Below are positions 12,465 to 38,449 of a DNA stretch of 64,000 bases, in pieces. The DNA is from Hymenobacter nivis (GTDB lineage: Bacteria > Bacteroidota > Bacteroidia > Cytophagales > Hymenobacteraceae). The position numbers and the translations under genes were made by a program. A model generated the notes under the pieces. That model worked only from the letters and a program-made list of their open reading frames with translations. It did not search any database and had not been told where the DNA came from. Each line of letters begins with the position of its first letter. Positions within the stretch are counted from its first letter, which is position 1. The stretch is from positions 3,162,001 to 3,226,000 of the forward strand of contig NZ_CP029145.1 of assembly GCF_003149515.1 (NCBI RefSeq), read 5' to 3'.

Positions 12465-15400
12465 TTGGCTTTGACGAATTACTCGCTGAATTTTCGCTGG
12501 CTGGCCTGGGCCGGGTTGCTGCTGGGCCTCGGGTGGCTGGCCGGCTGCGCGTCGAGCACCGGCGTGGTGGGCCACGCCATCAACAACGTGGCGGCGCGCG
12601 ATAATGCCTACTTCCTGGCCCGCGAGCAACTGCGCGCCACCGAAACCAAGCTGTACGCGGGGCGCGTGAACGACTACAACCAGCGGCTACCGCTGTTCCC
12701 GACGCTGGACAGCGCCAGCGTGCGGGCCAACCGGGCCGATTTGAATGGCATCATCAAGCGGGCATCGATGCCGATTCAGAACCGGCCAGGGTCGGACTGG
12801 ACCGACGACGCCTACCTGCTGGTAGCCTGGGCCCGGTTCTACGCGATGCAGTTTGACGATGCGGCGCTGACATTTAAATACGTGAACTCGACCAGCAAAG
12901 ACCCCAACGCCCAGCACGAGGGCCTGATTGGGCTGATGCGCACCTTCATGGCCACCGACCAGCTGGAGAGCGCCAAGGCCGTGTCGGACCTGCTGGACCG
13001 GGAGGTGGGGGCCCCGGCCGACGCCCGCGAGCTGTTCCTGACCCGCGCCGACTACTACCTGCGCACTGAGGAGCCGAAACTGGCCATTCCGCAGCTGGAG
13101 CGGGCCGTGCCGCTGATTGAAATCAAGAACGAGCGTTCGCGCACGCGTTACCTGCTGGCCCAGCTGTACCAGGAGCAGGGCGACGACAAGAAGGCAGTGG
13201 CGCAGCTCAACGACATCCTGGCCCACAACCCGCCCTACGAGCTGGATTTTTTCAGCAAGCTGCTGCTGGCGCAGGTGTCGGGGCTGGACGCGGAGAACAA
13301 GGCCCGGCTCGATAAGTACTTCGCCGGGCTGCTGAAGGACCCGAAGAACAAGGAGTACCACGACAAGATTTACTACGAGCTGGCGCGGCTGGCTTACCGC
13401 CAGAAAGACTACGCCGGGGCCCTGGCTCAGCTGCGCACCGCCGCCAAGGCCACTACCACCAACCGCTCCCAGAAGAGCTACACCTACCTGCTGGCCGGGC
13501 GCATCTACTACGAGAACTTGCAGAAATTCCGCCTCGCGGCGGCCTATTACGACAGCACGGTGCAGAACATGAGCCAGACGGCCCGCACTTACGTGGCCGT
13601 TAAGGAGCGGGCCGACATTCTGAAGGAATTTGCCAAGCAGTACACCATCGTCGAAACCCAGGACAGCCTCCAGGCGCTGGTGCGGCTCGACCCAGGGGCC
13701 CTCGACCAGCGCCTCGACCAGTACGCCAGCGCCGAGCTGACGGCCCGCCAGGTGGCGCTGGCCAAGAAGGTGCTGGCTGACAAGGACCAGGCCCGCGCCG
13801 CCGAGCTGGCCGGCCGGCCGAGCCTCAGCAACGGCAGCTCGCTGAGCAACTTGCCCAGCGGCCAGTCGGCCATCGACCCGCTGGCGTTTGACCCCACCGC
13901 CGCCGGCACCGGGGCCAAGTGGTACTTCGACAACCCCGCCACGCTGGGCACGGCGCGCGCCGATTTCCTGCGCAAGTGGGACAACCGCCGCCTGCAGGAC
14001 AACTGGCGCACCAGCAGCCAAGCCAACAGCGCCAACCCCGCGGCCAACGGCAGCGTGCCCGTCACCGTGACCGGCAACGGCGACACCCGCGTGAACCCCA
14101 CCACCGGGGCCCCCGATGGCCCCCGCGTGGCTCCCGCCGTGGATCCTGCCGCCGAAAAGCGGGACCTACTAGTGCAGTACCGCCAGACGCTGCCCACCAC
14201 GCCCGAAAAGCTGCAAGCGTCTAACAAACAGATTGAAGCGGCGCTGTACGAGCTGGGCAACATCTACAAAGAGCAGCTGAAGGAGCGCGACCAAGGCATT
14301 GCCACCTATGCCCAGCAGGTGCAGCGTTTCCCCCAGGGCCTCAACGCGCCCGACGCTTACTACCTACTGTATTTGCATTACAAAGCCCTGCCCGACGCCG
14401 CTAAAGCCGCTGGCTACGCGGCCGCTTTGCAGCGCGAATTTCCGCAGTCGCTCTACGCCAAGCTGATTGCCGACCCGCAGTACCGCGAGCACGAGCTGGC
14501 CCTGCATAAGGCCGTGGCCAGCCGCGTCGATTCGGCGTTTGTGCTTTATAAAAACCAGGAGTTCCGCAAGGCTTCGGGCGTGCTGGCGCGCACCGAGCGC
14601 CAATATCCCAAGAACGACCTCAGCGACCGGGTGGCGTACTTAAAAACGCTGCTCGTGGTGCGTACCCAGCCGCCGCTCACGGCCCGCGGCATGGTGGAGA
14701 AGTTCTATAAAGACTTCCCCGACAGCCCGCTGGTACCCGAGGCCCGCGCCCTGGCCAGCACCTACCAGCGGCAGGACGCCGGCCAAATCACCGGGGCCCT
14801 GGCCTCGATGGACAAGCCCGTAGTGTCGATATTCCGCCCCGGCGAAATCGACAGCCGGCTGCGCGTGTACTACAGCAACGATGAGTCGCCAGCCGCGGCC
14901 GTAACGCCCACGCCAGCCGCGCCCGCCCCGGTGGCGCCAGCGCCCCCCCCGGGAATAACGCCGGCTGCGGAGGCTCCCAAGGGCTCGCCAAAACCGACGG
15001 TACCGGCGCGGAGGGCCCCGAAGAATGCGCCCAAAGCAGCCGTAACGGGCGCGCCAGCAACAACTGCGCCCGCGCCGGTAGTGCCCAGGGCCGCCCCAGC
15101 GCCGGCCGCCGGCACCCCCACTCCCACTGGGGCCCCAGTGCCAGCCGCCGGCACCCCCACCACTGGGGCCCCAGCGCCGGCCGCAGGCACCCCCACTCCC
15201 ACTGGGGCCCCAGCGCCGGCAGCTGACCCGAACGCCGCTGCTGCGCCCGCGCCTGCCGCGCCTGCTACGGCCTATGGCACGCAGCTGAGTGCAGCCCACG
15301 CCGTGGTGCTGGTGTTCCCGAAGGGTACGCCGCCGGTGGCCAATTTAGATGCGGCGCTGGACGCGTACAACCACCGCTGGTTCCGCGACGTGAACTTGCA

Positions 15401-15705: not shown

Positions 15706-15731
15706 CGTGTTGATTTTGCCCTTATTTGCTT

Positions 15732-18080
15732 ATGCCTGACTACTCTGCTGCTACGCCCCGCCGGTCCAATGGGGCCCCTGCGCCGGCCCGGCCGGGGCGC
15801 TACACGGCTTTTGTGCGCACGCTGTGGGTGCTGTTTGTGGGCGGTGCGCTGGTGGCCGGGGGCTACGTGCTGGCCGTGAACAGCAACTTCCTGAACCTGT
15901 TCGGGCGGATGCCGAACCTGAAATCGCTCGAAAACCCGCGCTCCGAGCTGGCCTCCGAAATCTACTCCGCCGACGGCATGCTGCTGGGCAAGTACTTCCG
16001 CGAGAACCGCACGCCCGCCGAGTACAAAGACCTGCCCCAGAACTTGATTGACGCACTGGTGGCCACCGAGGACGTGCGCTTCGAGCAGCACTCGGGCATC
16101 GATCCGCGCAGCATTGCGCGGGCGGTGGTAGCGCTGGGACACGGCGGCGGGGGCTCCACGCTCACGCAGCAGGTGGCCAAGGTGCTGTTCAAAACCCGGC
16201 CCGACCAGCCCAATACCCTGAACGACGGCCTGCTGAACGGCAGCGGCAAGGTGGGCATCCTGGTGGCCAAAACCAAGGAATGGCTGCTGGCCATCCGGCT
16301 GGAGCGCAACTACACGAAGCGCGAAATCCTGCGCATGTACCTGAACACGGTGGAGTACGGCTCGAACGCCTACGGCATCAATACGGCGGCCAAAACGTTC
16401 TTCAACAAGGCCCCGCGCCAGCTGACGACGCCCGAGGCGGCCACGCTGGTGGGCATCGTGAACGCGCCCGGCCGCTTCAGCCCCAAGGTGCACCCCGACC
16501 GCTCGCGCCGCCGCCGCAACTGGGTGCTGCGCCAGATGGCCAGGGCCCACTACATTCCGGCCGCCGAGCTGGCCGCCGACACGGCCCAACCCATCGTGCT
16601 GCACTACAACGTAGAAAACCCGGCCAAGGGCCTGGCCCCGTACTTCCGTACCGAGGTGGCCAAGTCGCTGCTGGCCTGGGCCCGCGAGACGGACCACGAC
16701 CTGTACGCCGATGGCCTGAAGATTTACACCACCCTCGACGCGCGGATGCAGGAGCACGCCGAAGCGGCCGTGAACGAGCACCTGGCCTTGCAGCAGAAGT
16801 GGTTTTCGGCCCACTGGAAGGGCCAGCTGCCCTGGCGCGACGAGAACGGCCAGGTCATCCCCAACTTCCTGAACACTGCCATGCGCCGCACCCAGCGCTA
16901 CAAGTCGCTGATGAACATCTACGAAGGCAACCGCGACTCGGTGAATTACTACCTGCGCAAGAAGTACAAAATGCAGGTGTTCAGCTGGCAGGGCGAGCGG
17001 GAAGTGCTGATGTCGCCGCTCGACTCGCTGGCCTACTACAAGCGCTATTTGCAGGCCGGCTTCATGGCCATGAACCCGCTGAACGGCCAGGTGAAGGCCT
17101 GGGTGGGGGGCGCCAACTTTAAGTACTTCAAGTTCGACCACGTGCGCCAGGGCAAGCGCCAGCCGGGCTCCACCTTCAAGCCGATTGTGTACACGGCGGC
17201 CATCGACCAGGGCTACTCGCCGTGCTACCCGCGGCCCGACGTGCCCACCACCTTCCCGGCCGTGGCCGGCCGGCCCCCCTACACGCCCCAGAACTTCGAG
17301 GGCAACTACTCAGGGCGCACCTTCACGCTGCGCCAGGCCCTGGCCCGCTCCATGAACTCCATCACGGCGTGGCTGGTGCTCAAGCTCACGCCCGAAGTGG
17401 TGGTGGGCTACGCCAAGCGCCTGGGCATCACCTCGCCTATTGATGCGGTACCGTCGGTGGGCTTCGGGGCCTCCGATTGCAGCATTTTTGAGCTTTGCGG
17501 GGTGTACGCCACCTTCGTGAACAAGGGCGTGTGGACCGCGCCAGTGATGGTGACGCGCATCGAGGACAAGAACGGCAACGTGCTGCGCGAATTCCAGCCC
17601 CAGACCAAGGAGGTGCTGAGCGAGGAAACGGCCTACATCATGACCAACATGCTGCAAGCCAGCACCACCGAGCCCGGCGGCACCAGCACCATCCTGCACA
17701 CGGGCTTCAAGTTCCCCTACGATATCGGGGCCAAGACCGGCACCACCTCCAACTACTCCGATGCCTGGTTCATGGGCATCACCCCCGACCTGGTCTGCGG
17801 CATGTGGATTGGCGGCGAGGACCGCAGCATCCACTTCCGCACCGGGGCCTACGGCCAGGGGGCCCGGCTGGCGCTGCCGCTCTACGGCATCTTCATGAAG
17901 AAGGTGTACGCCGACAAGGACATCGCCATCAACCGGGGCCCCTTCCCGCTGCCGGCCAAGCCGCTGAGCATCGAGATTGACTGCTCGAAGTACACCGGCG
18001 CGGCCCAGCGCGACACCATCCCGTATGACCAGAAAATGGCCCAGCCCGACCTGGAGGGCCCCAACAAGCAGGATATTTAA
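15732..18080 (+). CDS. mrcA: Class A penicillin-binding protein 1A (bifunctional peptidoglycan synthase)
   Basis: A 782-residue inner-membrane enzyme that polymerises glycan strands and cross-links peptides in the periplasm. One N-terminal membrane anchor (about residues 30-50) is followed by a glycosyltransferase-51 domain, with catalytic Glu113 in ATEDVRFEQHSG and GGSTLTQQ near 140. The transpeptidase domain has the active Ser480 in GSTFKP, the SMN motif at Ser540 and KTGT at Lys668. All catalytic motifs are intact. The ATG at 15732 is preferred over a TTG two codons upstream. Confidence 0.95.
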   Translation: MPDYSAATPRRSNGAPAPARPGRYTAFVRTLWVLFVGGALVAGGYVLAVNSNFLNLFGRMPNLKSLENPRSELASEIYSADGMLLGKYFRENRTPAEYKDLPQNLIDALVATEDVRFEQHSGIDPRSIARAVVALGHGGGGSTLTQQVAKVLFKTRPDQPNTLNDGLLNGSGKVGILVAKTKEWLLAIRLERNYTKREILRMYLNTVEYGSNAYGINTAAKTFFNKAPRQLTTPEAATLVGIVNAPGRFSPKVHPDRSRRRRNWVLRQMARAHYIPAAELAADTAQPIVLHYNVENPAKGLAPYFRTEVAKSLLAWARETDHDLYADGLKIYTTLDARMQEHAEAAVNEHLALQQKWFSAHWKGQLPWRDENGQVIPNFLNTAMRRTQRYKSLMNIYEGNRDSVNYYLRKKYKMQVFSWQGEREVLMSPLDSLAYYKRYLQAGFMAMNPLNGQVKAWVGGANFKYFKFDHVRQGKRQPGSTFKPIVYTAAIDQGYSPCYPRPDVPTTFPAVAGRPPYTPQNFEGNYSGRTFTLRQALARSMNSITAWLVLKLTPEVVVGYAKRLGITSPIDAVPSVGFGASDCSIFELCGVYATFVNKGVWTAPVMVTRIEDKNGNVLREFQPQTKEVLSEETAYIMTNMLQASTTEPGGTSTILHTGFKFPYDIGAKTGTTSNYSDAWFMGITPDLVCGMWIGGEDRSIHFRTGAYGQGARLALPLYGIFMKKVYADKDIAINRGPFPLPAKPLSIEIDCSKYTGAAQRDTIPYDQKMAQPDLEGPNKQDI

Positions 18081-18114: not shown

Positions 18115-18397
18115 TTTAAATCGGGGGTCCGACCCCCGATTTTGGTCCTCAGAGGATCTATTTTCATCCTCCGAGGACCGAGATAGAGCCCAATTGGCCC
18201 GATTTCGGGGCTTAAACCCTTAAAATCGGTCCTCTGAGGGTCTATCTCGAACCAAATTGGCTCCAAATAGACCCTCGGAGGACCGATTTTGAGCTTCCGA
18301 GGCGCTAAATTGAGCTTCTGAGGACTGAAATCGGGGGTCGGACCCTCGAAACGGACCCTCCGAGGTCCGAAATCGGGGGTCGGACCCGCGATTTAAT
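18115..18397. repeat. 21-bp phased array of short palindromes
   Basis: Thirteen 11-bp palindromes or near-palindromes start at 18125, 18146, 18167, 18188, 18209, 18230, 18251, 18272, 18293, 18314, 18335, 18356 and 18377, exactly 21 bp apart. Perfect examples are GGGTCCGACCC (18125), TCCTCAGAGGA (18146), TCCTCCGAGGA (18167) and GGGTCGGACCC (18335 and 18377). Spacers are 10 bp and mostly variants of CCGATTTTGG or its reverse complement. Since 21 is a multiple of three, every frame reads as a degenerate heptapeptide repeat; no start, stop or codon pattern favours coding. It lies between mrcA and uvrC, both rightward. Confidence 0.9.
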
Positions 18398-18497
18398 TTT
18401 TCGGCTTGCCTTTTTAGGGGCCCCGGGGGTATTTGCGGCACAACGGGGCCGGTTTTGTCGTTCTACTCCGCAACTGTTTCCTTTCCCTCGCTTTCGC

Positions 18498-20309
18498 ATG
18501 GCCGCTTCCCCCGATTTACAAGCCCAAATCAACCACCTCCCCCACCGGCCGGGGGTGTACAAGTATTTCGACGACGAGGGCATCATCTACGTGGGCAAGG
18601 CCATCGACCTACGCAAGCGGGTGAGCAGCTACTTCAACAAGAACGACCACAACAAGAAGACCCAGCAGCTGGTGCGCAACATCAAGCGCCTGGAATTCAC
18701 GATTGTGGACTCGGAGTCGGACGCGTTTTTGCTCGAGAACAACCTCATCAAGCAGCACCAGCCCAAGTACAACATCCTGCTGAAAGACGGCAAAACCTAC
18801 CCCTACCTCTGCCTCACCAGCGAGCGGTTTCCGCGCCTGCTGCCCACGCGCAACAAGGTGGCCGACGGCTCGCGCTACTACGGGCCCTACGCCACGGGCA
18901 CGGCCATGAACGTGCTATTGGAGCTGATCAGGGCCCTGTACCCGCTGCGCACCTGCACCTACAACCTGGCGCCGGCCAACGTGGCGGCCGGCAAGTTCAA
19001 GGTGTGCCTGGAGTACCACATCGGCAACTGCAAGGGCCCCTGCGTGAACCTGGAGGACGAGGCCACCTACAACGGCTACATCACCCAGATCAAGCAAATC
19101 CTGAACGGCGATCTGCGCATTCCGAAGCAGTACTTCCGCGAGCAGATGGGCCGCGCCGCCCAGGAGATGCAGTACGAGCTGGCCCACCAGTTCAAGGTGA
19201 AATTGGACAAGCTCGACGCCTTCCAGGCCAAAAGCACGATCGTGAGCGACACGCTGACCAACATCGACGTGTTCGCCATTGCCTCGAACGAGAAGGCCGC
19301 CTTCATCTCCTACATGAAGGTGATGAACGGCTCCATCATCCTCACCCAGACCCTGGAAGTGACGAAGAAGCTCGACGAGCCCGACGCCGAAATCCTGGGG
19401 CCCCTGGTGATGCAGCTGCGCCAGGACTTTGAAAGCGAGGCCCGCGAAGTGCTCTCCAACGTGGCCCTGGAGCTGCCGCTGCCCGGCGTAGCGCTGGCCG
19501 TGCCCCAAATCGGCGACAAGCGCAAGCTGCTGGAGCTGGGCCTGAAAAACGTACTCTACCTGCGCAAGGAAAAGGAGAGCATGAACGAGCGTGGCAAGGA
19601 CCTGAACGAGGTGCGCATCATGGAAACCATTAAGAAGGACTTGCGCCTCAAGGACTTGCCCAAGCACATCGAATGCTTCGACAACTCGAACTTCCAGGGC
19701 GACAACCCGGTGGCGGCGATGGTGTGCTTCCGCAACGCCAAGCCTAGTAAGAGGGATTACCGCCACTACCACATCAAAACCGTGGTGGGCCCCGACGATT
19801 TCCAGTCCATGTACGAAGTGGTGCACCGCCGCTACCGCCGCCTCAGCGAGGAGGGCGCCAGCCTGCCCCAGCTCGTCATCGTGGACGGTGGCAAGGGCCA
19901 GCTCAGCATGGCCGTGAAGGCCCTGAAGGACCTGAACCTATGGGGCCAGATCCCGGTCATCGGCATCGCCAAGCGCCTGGAGGAAATCTACGTGCCCAAC
20001 GACCCGCTGCCCATCTACATCGACAAGCGGAGCGAGTCGCTGCGCCTGTTCCAGCGGATGCGCGACGAAGTGCACCGCTTCGGCATCACCTTCCACCGCT
20101 CCCTGCGCGACGCCGGCACCCTCAAAACCGAGCTAACCGATGTGAAAGGCTTGGGGCCCGTCACGGCCGAAAAGCTACTGAACAAGTTCAAGTCCGTGAA
20201 GAAGATCCGCGAGTTGAGCGAAGCCGAGCTAGTCGCCGAAGTCGGCAAAGCCAAAACCAAGGTGCTCCAAGCCTACTTCGACCAGCAGGAAGCCGAGCCC
20301 GCCGAGTAA
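18498..20309 (+). CDS. uvrC: Excinuclease ABC subunit C
   Basis: Makes both incisions in nucleotide excision repair after UvrB loading. The 603-residue protein has an N-terminal GIY-YIG nuclease (RPGVYKYFD...IIYVGKAIDL, residues 13-45), a UVR-like region for UvrB contact in the middle, the RNase H-like nuclease with catalytic Asp in IECFDNSNFQGDNPVAAMV (about residue 395), and a C-terminal helix-hairpin-helix (VKGLGPVTAEKLLNKF). Length is normal. The ATG follows the palindrome array by about 100 bp. Confidence 0.97.
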   Translation: MAASPDLQAQINHLPHRPGVYKYFDDEGIIYVGKAIDLRKRVSSYFNKNDHNKKTQQLVRNIKRLEFTIVDSESDAFLLENNLIKQHQPKYNILLKDGKTYPYLCLTSERFPRLLPTRNKVADGSRYYGPYATGTAMNVLLELIRALYPLRTCTYNLAPANVAAGKFKVCLEYHIGNCKGPCVNLEDEATYNGYITQIKQILNGDLRIPKQYFREQMGRAAQEMQYELAHQFKVKLDKLDAFQAKSTIVSDTLTNIDVFAIASNEKAAFISYMKVMNGSIILTQTLEVTKKLDEPDAEILGPLVMQLRQDFESEAREVLSNVALELPLPGVALAVPQIGDKRKLLELGLKNVLYLRKEKESMNERGKDLNEVRIMETIKKDLRLKDLPKHIECFDNSNFQGDNPVAAMVCFRNAKPSKRDYRHYHIKTVVGPDDFQSMYEVVHRRYRRLSEEGASLPQLVIVDGGKGQLSMAVKALKDLNLWGQIPVIGIAKRLEEIYVPNDPLPIYIDKRSESLRLFQRMRDEVHRFGITFHRSLRDAGTLKTELTDVKGLGPVTAEKLLNKFKSVKKIRELSEAELVAEVGKAKTKVLQAYFDQQEAEPAE

Positions 20310-37183: not shown

Positions 37184-37309
37184 GTTGTTAGTTGCTCGTT
37201 GTCAGTTGCTCGTTGTTAGTTGCTCGTTGTCAGTTGCTCGTTGTCAGTTGCTTGTTGTCAGTCAATCATTTACAAATTAACTAGCAACAAGCAACTGACA
37301 ACGAGCAAC
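37184..37309. repeat. 14-bp tandem repeat with inverted copies
   Basis: Six tandem 14-bp units run from 37184 to 37267: GTTGTTAGTTGCTC, GTTGTCAGTTGCTC, GTTGTTAGTTGCTC, GTTGTCAGTTGCTC, GTTGTCAGTTGCTT and GTTGTCAGTCAATC. Two inverted copies follow at about 37282-37309. The transcript from either side can fold into a long stem in several registers. It separates two converging genes. Confidence 0.9.
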
Positions 37310-38449
37310 TTAAAACAGGGCGGCGCCGGCCAGCCCCACGGCCAGCACCACCAGCAGCAGCACGCCGCTGTAGGCCGCACCCAGCAGCAGCGACTTCGCT
37401 ACCGTCTTGCCCCAGCTTTGCTGATAAAAAGTGTGCAGCGCCACCACGAAGTACACGATGGACGCCAGGCGGAGCAGGTTGCTCAGCCAATTTGGGACGT
37501 GCAGCTTATCGAGCCCAATGAGTAAGCCGATGAGAATGAACAAGAAGCACTGCATGTGGATGGTGAACACCAGGTGGCTGAGGTAGTAGCGGTGCTGCCG
37601 AAAATAAGCTCCCTTGAGCAGCAGCGCGGCCAGCGGCATCAGCAAAAACAGGAGGACGGAGCCCGCCCGCAGCGCCTGGTGCACAGTTTCCTCGCGGGTC
37701 GAGTCGCGCCAGCGCACCGCACGCCGCACCGCCAGCCGGCTGAAAAAGCTTGGCACTTCGCCGTAGCTGCGCAGCACCGAATCGGCCTGGGCCTCGGTGG
37801 GGTGCACCGGCAGTTTTTTTATTGCTGCGAAGGCAATTTGGATGCCCCCGCCATTGCGGGCCGCGGCCACCGTGCGCGCTTGTACACGCCGCGCAATCTC
37901 CAATACTTTCTGCTGTTCGGGCGTGGCCGGGGCCGCCGCTAGGCTGTCTACCGTGGTGGCCAAAGCCTTCCGAATGGCTTCGCTAGCATCTTTCCTGGCG
38001 GCTCGCCCGGCCTTGGGGCCCTGAAAGAACGTGATGCTGTCGTCATTGGCAACGAGCGCGGGAACGACGTTTTTTTTCGTGGCGGCGGGCTTCGCGATTT
38101 GTTCGGGGGCCTCTTCTTCTTCGTAGCTGAAAACTGTGCCCAGAAGCAGAAAAAAGACGAAGCTGATGAACACGTACAGCCGGATGGGTGGCACGTAGGG
38201 CACGCGCTGCCCGGCCAAAAAGCGCCGCGTCAGCTCGCCGGGCCGAAACAGCAGCAGCCCCGCCGTGCAGAACACCTTGCCGTCGGAGTGGAAGATGCCC
38301 TCCAGAAACTCCTCGACCACGTGCCCGAAGCTGATTTCAACGGCGTGGTTTTGCTACCCGCAGCGGGGGCAGAATTCGCAGGGCTCGCCGGGCACGAAAG
38401 TATAGTGGCAATTGGCGCAGTCGGCTGGTTGGGTAGCGTGGTGGGCCAT
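37310..38449 (-). pseudogene. DUF3667 membrane protein gene interrupted by an in-frame amber codon
   Basis: The protein starts at the ATG at 38449 with a zinc ribbon (ADCANCHYTFVPG then CEFCPRCG). The next codon, 38354-38356, is TAG, after which the same frame goes on for 348 codons: QNHAVEISFGHVVEEFLEG, then FRPGELTRRFLAGQRVPYVP and four C-terminal membrane helices. Zinc ribbon plus PGEL..RFLAGQR..Y is the DUF3667 pattern. A CAG-to-TAG change would explain it, restoring CGQQN. As written the protein would end after 31 residues unless a GTG at 38320 or suppression is used. Function of DUF3667 is unknown. Confidence 0.8.

Follow-up and report, generated by a model that had tools for sequence, protein, structure and literature searches.

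A palindromic tandem array on a 21-bp lattice between mrcA and uvrC of Hymenobacter nivis, and its possible relation to arrays beside an uncharacterised gene family

The window, that is, the whole stretch of 64,000 nucleotides analysed here, belongs to the 5.03-Mb, single-contig genome of Hymenobacter nivis. A class A penicillin-binding protein gene (mrcA-like) and uvrC are separated in it by a 417-bp spacer, which is mostly filled by a tandem array, hereafter the focal array, that begins 34 bp after the mrcA-like stop codon and ends 100 bp before the uvrC start codon. The sequence-only reading of this DNA had placed the array between these two genes, and Pfam matches on both of them confirm the placement. 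The features of the locus are as follows.

15726..18080, + strand: class A penicillin-binding protein gene (mrcA-like), upstream; Pfam Transgly (1.5e-53) and Transpeptidase (1e-24)
18115..18397, no strand: orphan palindromic tandem array on a 21-bp lattice; 13 units, each an 11-bp dyad plus a 10-bp spacer (YCGAWWTCGR type)
18118..18142, no strand: left terminal dyad, AAATCGGGGGTC-C-GACCCCCGATTT, with all 12 pairs perfect around 18130; on paper it resembles a terminator
18251..18261, no strand: unit 7 (ACCAAATTGGC), centre of an array-wide inverted repeat (unit-shuffle p=0.014)
18370..18403, no strand: right terminal dyad; 11 of 12 pairs around 18382, then AATTTTT
18498..20309, + strand: uvrC, downstream; Pfam UvrC_RNaseH_dom (1.2e-55) and GIY-YIG

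The units of the focal array start at 18125, 18146 and so on to 18377 (18125+21k) with zero drift. Thirteen dyads on an exact lattice were what the sequence-only reading had described, and this geometry holds: mean arm pairing over the 13 units is 4.31 of 5, at eight other periods even the best lattice of 8 units reaches just 2.5-3.0, and when the right arms were shuffled among units and the score was maximised over all phases, pairing was 2.93 ± 0.24, with none of 300 shuffles as high. Self-identity is 0.49 at lag 21 and 0.54 at lag 42, against 0.19-0.27 at lags 18-20 and 22-24. Because the units are only about 50% alike, TRF splits the array into two low-scoring pieces. The dyads are real, but only 5 of the 13 11-mers are perfect (5/5), seven pair at 4/5 and one at 3/5. 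Their sequences do vary, as had been noted, but not freely: each 11-mer belongs to one of three palindromic types that recur, GGGTCNGACCC, CCCTCNGAGGG and GCCAANTTGGC.

On paper, the focal array also forms one long hairpin around unit 7 (RNA MFE -176 kcal/mol, z -12.9), the z of the RNA fold being about -13 on both strands. A whole-array hairpin was considered as a general property of such arrays and rejected, its significance being limited to the focal array and own array 2 and not extending to most others. A consensus terminator scan of the focal array gave 2 sites, compared with 1.0 in shuffles; the end dyads are terminator-like, and the left-end type recurs on other arrays of sequence class A, to which the focal array belongs. 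An Rfam search of the focal array returned nothing at gathering score, only sub-threshold matches to generic hairpins.

BLAST of the focal array found matches in 10 of 101 genus genomes. With a covariance model of the lattice (73 columns), at least 16 of 120 Hymenobacter genomes proved to contain strong arrays, and other Cytophagales families were matched as well, which shows that 21-bp dyad arrays extend to relatives of the genome in which they were noticed; in an exact pattern scan, matches were clustered only in Hymenobacter records, and single matches in other phyla look like chance. A sequence-blind scan covered 1.66 Mb drawn from four genomes and a further 200 kb of E. coli; genes were called, here and in the context analysis below, by a home-made codon-usage caller. 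Twelve of 17 non-coding tandem arrays have a period of 21 or 42 in unrelated sequences (binomial 7e-14), and the E. coli stretch yielded one array, of period 49. A genome carries only a few arrays, and their occurrence is patchy. Those of class A have almost no phase breaks (two one-base shifts, in L106 and L139) despite about 50% unit divergence, and a recent block duplication of 126 bp is seen in L013. At the mrcA-uvrC spot of a sister species, whose uvrC is 97% identical, there is a 21-bp array of another sequence class, B in place of A, which amounts to turnover in place. Judged against a limited search of the open-access literature, this class of arrays is apparently undescribed.

Over 14 arrays, the arms of the 11-mers pair at 3.11 of 5, against 2.35 ± 0.09 after within-array shuffling, and a pair-count across arrays gives 71% paired alignment cells against 51%. 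With unit type controlled by leave-pair-out classification, the values are 2.94 and 2.72; with type and array both controlled, over all arrays, they are 2.94 and 2.89 (p=0.066). The focal array alone, its 13 units shuffled within type only, pairs at 4.31 against 3.73 (p=0.005); in other sequence classes, covariation beyond shuffles is slight or absent. The compensatory-change test thus has two outcomes: arms covary beyond within-array shuffles, but the residual within type and array is weak. The dyad covariation is real, but it is mostly a mixture of three palindromic unit types; since so little is left once type and array are controlled, symmetry is therefore passed on mainly through a few palindromic unit types, with ongoing compensation modest at most. 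Free compensatory evolution was rejected as the main cause of the dyads, the residual being small after sorting into the three types. The earlier suggestion that symmetry and phase matter rather than sequence is partly supported: at orthologous places the 21-bp period is common to arrays of unrelated sequence, and the arms covary, so that symmetry and above all phase are better conserved than sequence. The mixture of types qualifies the part on symmetry.

Intergenic arrays are enriched between convergent genes (11/32 against 40/303, p=0.004) and depleted between divergent genes (3/32 against 90/303, p=0.013). Ten arrays lie 3' of members of one uncharacterised family, and other recurrent sites are an FtsX-like/response-regulator site and an OmpA/kinase site. 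Arrays are found within genes as well. In an alpha-2-macroglobulin-like (A2M-like) protein, the linker between YRVVA and DGEENTLPV is variable in all species read (6-94 aa), holding in-frame array heptads in six species and being Lys-rich in others; in the linker of an OpuCA-like ATPase, in-frame heptads occur in three species, of class A in one and of another class in two. Insertion of the array as a transposon with target duplications was tried and rejected: the homologous linkers are variable in all species, and no clean empty site could be read.

The in-frame copies in the A2M-like and OpuCA-like genes favour a decayed or strand-symmetric heptapeptide-coding repeat, in which 21 bp would be kept as seven codons. 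Heptad repeats are indeed present in all six frames of the focal array, as had been pointed out, but all six also hold stop codons, as do several other arrays, and the homologous arrays in the two genes keep an open frame whereas the focal array does not. Moreover, distant arrays beside the gene family described below have periods of 22, 43 or 44, not multiples of 21, and the within-type pairing excess is absent from in-gene arrays and present in the others. A decayed heptapeptide gene at the focal locus, which the sequence-only reading had offered as an alternative, is not supported in view of the stop codons, and we regard the coding explanation as very improbable.

Among the genes that flank arrays are members of an uncharacterised protein family, all-helical and about 158 aa long; the sequence-only reading had missed this association. 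With an array defined by a best lag of 21 or 42 and a score of at least 0.50, such an array lies 3' of the gene in 65 of 77 Cytophagales members (44/48 in Hymenobacter, 21/29 in other Cytophagales) and in 73 of 93 members when other orders (8/16) are included; 3 more members in other orders show 3' arrays of period 22, 43 or 44 (L443, L445 and L450). Because the screen reports whichever of 51 lags scores best, it was also applied to 5' flanks and to random genes. An array was called in 1 of 53 family 5' flanks (0/29, 0/8 and 1/16) and beside 7 of 535 random long genes, which were drawn from three of the same Hymenobacter genomes (Fisher 9e-67 for 65/77, the genomes being related and the counts thus not independent events). 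Independently of the flank screen, lattice-model matches outside the genus adjoin a family gene in three genomes (G152, G453 and G263). This association of gene and array (65/77 against 7/535) holds independently of any mechanism.

The linked arrays differ in sequence between species, with CGATTTCG, GAACGAGTTC, TTATTGCCCGTTCGG and GGTACCTTCGGAAGGTACC types as examples; 24 of 65 have a palindromic unit consensus (p<0.05; 3 expected), and several are not palindromic. In many linked flanks the edge of the array bears terminator-like A-stem-T hairpins that keep to the lattice, and an indicative terminator scan placed a terminator-like hairpin ahead of the array in 16 flanks from outside the genus. 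Family members are present in 44 of 120 Hymenobacter genomes, in 23 of 129 genera in an order sample and in 18 of 177 genera in a class sample. Of the 15 genomes in which class A arrays are dispersed, 14 have the gene, compared with 30 of 105 others; one genome (G002) has some arrays and no detected family gene. When orphan arrays were compared by shared 9-mers with the linked arrays of their own genome, 11 of 26 ranked in the top 3 (2.05 expected), a sharing that may be explained by common ancestry.

The focal genome carries three family genes (at 2,078,149, 2,401,306 and 3,086,025), each with its own 3' array, and the array behind the first of them is the second place in this genome matched by BLAST of the focal array. 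Because the focal array is of class A, as is that linked array, yet lies about 94 kb from the nearest family gene, it is best described as an orphan array of the gene-linked kind.

Family members have no Pfam or NCBIfam match, and no recognisable DNA-binding or catalytic domain was found in the protein. The AlphaFold model is all-helical (pLDDT 89), with one helix of 55 residues; a PDB sequence search gave no credible match, and in a fold search the best PDB matches had E>2 or Z of about 4, none of them confident. PADLOC returned sub-threshold matches only, and the family is absent from PLSDB plasmids at E 1e-5.

In these arrays as a class, the period is fixed at two turns of DNA, which is 21 bp, or 22 bp in some distant members; the sequence is free, and units tend to be palindromic. 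Their home is directly 3' of the ~158-aa family, with similar arrays also standing alone at permissive places that recur, namely 3' spacers and flexible protein linkers. Period, place and gene linkage are thus conserved, and the letters are not. We tentatively propose, as an explanation that falls somewhat short of probable, that the focal array is an orphan copy of this gene-array module, whose protein would read spacing or structure rather than sequence. The ~158-aa protein, probably as an oligomer, would bind or maintain the array at the DNA level, recognising the two-turn spacing together with dyad or hairpin structure; duplication and copying would replace unit sequences but preserve the lattice. 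Orphans such as that between mrcA and uvrC may be copies that have dispersed, or may serve the same protein as secondary platforms; lying between a stop codon and the next gene, they would be tolerated. In favour of the module are the link between gene and array, the period common to unrelated sequences, the turnover at mrcA-uvrC, the excess of palindromic consensus units, the BLAST match behind a family gene, the frequency of the gene in genomes with dispersed class A arrays, and the hairpins ahead of arrays outside the genus, which speak for the DNA level rather than a 3' UTR. Against it count the negative domain and fold searches with the protein, the distance of about 94 kb between the focal array and the nearest family gene, the arrays of G002, the incomplete match of orphan arrays to the linked arrays of their own genome, and the linked arrays that are not palindromic.

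The main rival to this module is neutral growth driven by palindromes, in which functionless tandem repeats arise by slippage from a palindromic seed, nascent-strand template switching keeps palindromes and register, and the 3' flank of the gene family is nothing more than permissive. Recent block duplications such as that in L013 fit this explanation, as do the array-wide inverted repeat, which exceeds unit shuffles in the focal array and own array 2, and the settings of the arrays, which avoid promoters (the divergent and convergent counts above) and occupy disordered linkers. However, slippage does not select one period, and 21/42 is found in unrelated sequences; class A arrays are nearly without phase breaks for all their unit divergence; and a permissive flank does not account for the excess over random genes. 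Neutral growth accounts for register and symmetry and not for the gene link, and we consider it unlikely.

A less likely account still is an RNA-level element, in which clustered intrinsic terminators or 3' mRNA hairpins insulate neighbouring genes. The 3' location and convergent enrichment, the A-stem-T hairpins at the edge of many linked arrays and the strong focal fold on both strands are in its favour. Against it, a terminator-like hairpin already stands ahead of the array in the 16 out-of-genus flanks, many arrays are not palindromic, in-frame copies within genes would terminate those genes, no Rfam family was found at gathering score, and an ordinary terminator does not need a 21-bp lattice. 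Because of those 16 flanks and the arrays in coding linkers, a role at the DNA level seems likelier than one at the RNA level.

The sequence-only reading had itself named a protein scaffold as possible, which in general form would be a putative platform for a nucleoid protein unrelated to the 158-aa family. The geometry of the array agrees with that proposal, 21 bp being two helical turns, so that the dyads would lie on one face; however, the proposal leaves the strong tie to one gene family without explanation, and the arrays are few per genome and patchy. We find such a platform quite improbable.

Several known systems resemble these arrays in part. Iterons and centromere-like arrays (Rep-iteron, ParR-parC) consist of sites spaced by roughly two helical turns and lie beside the gene of the protein that binds them. 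The family gene likewise adjoins an array of ~20-22 bp period (21/42 in the 65 of 77, some 22/44), but the Hymenobacter arrays are chromosomal, multi-copy and always 3', protein binding is only putative, and array sequence changes while the protein stays ~75% identical. A structural match of the family protein to Rep or ParR was not found, an absence that proves nothing. Rickettsia palindromic elements are palindromic repeats located both between genes and in frame inside genes, as Hymenobacter-type arrays are; unlike them, the latter form a tandem 21-bp lattice in many unrelated sequence classes. REP/BIME elements with RAYT (REP-associated tyrosine transposase) tie short palindromes to one protein family (PMC2817692, PMC3733652, PMC3116915). 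They share dispersed intergenic copies, often 3' of genes, whereas the Hymenobacter arrays are fixed 21-bp tandem lattices in few copies per genome, their linked gene is not a Y1-type tyrosine transposase (no Pfam match; all-helical model), and there is no constant GTAG/CGTC-tagged palindrome, linked arrays differing completely between species. In PARCEL palindromic coding repeats, each 75-bp unit encodes 25 aa and a protein motif is conserved (PMC2996958); the likeness lies in tandem repeats with dyad symmetry and sequence variation, and the difference in a 21-bp unit that is mostly non-coding, with stops in all frames of the focal array.

Extended beyond the focal locus, the module would become a Bacteroidota-wide family that maintains arrays beside its own gene and at satellite sites, recognised by two-turn periodicity and dyad structure, not by sequence. 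This wider claim is more doubtful than that for the focal array; it would mean that phase and place are conserved without the letters. If true, bacteria carry chromosomal arrays defined by geometry, missed by profile and BLAST searches and tied to a protein family without assigned function, and these would offer a concrete way into two questions: by what means a protein might maintain or read periodicity in DNA, and how repeats come to lie in frame in protein linkers.

Other repeats were observed in the course of the analysis. A 39-bp coding repeat (Pro/Ala/Thr-rich) lies at 15093-15259 of the window, in a 1056-aa ORF upstream of mrcA. At 37184-37310, after a gene stop, there is a 14-bp tandem repeat (GTTGTCAGTTGCTC x5.6), with an inverted copy downstream; a related array in the sister species (G052) is nearly perfect. 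An AT-rich 21-bp array of GCTATTTTAGC type occurs in a GC-rich genome (G000:C1, about 362985-363195, in L235), and a similar one in H. ruricola flanks a homologous small gene. Finally, two other Cytophagales genomes (G252 and G176) carry nearly identical, apparently recent 21-bp arrays (L115, 2966-3151, and L430).
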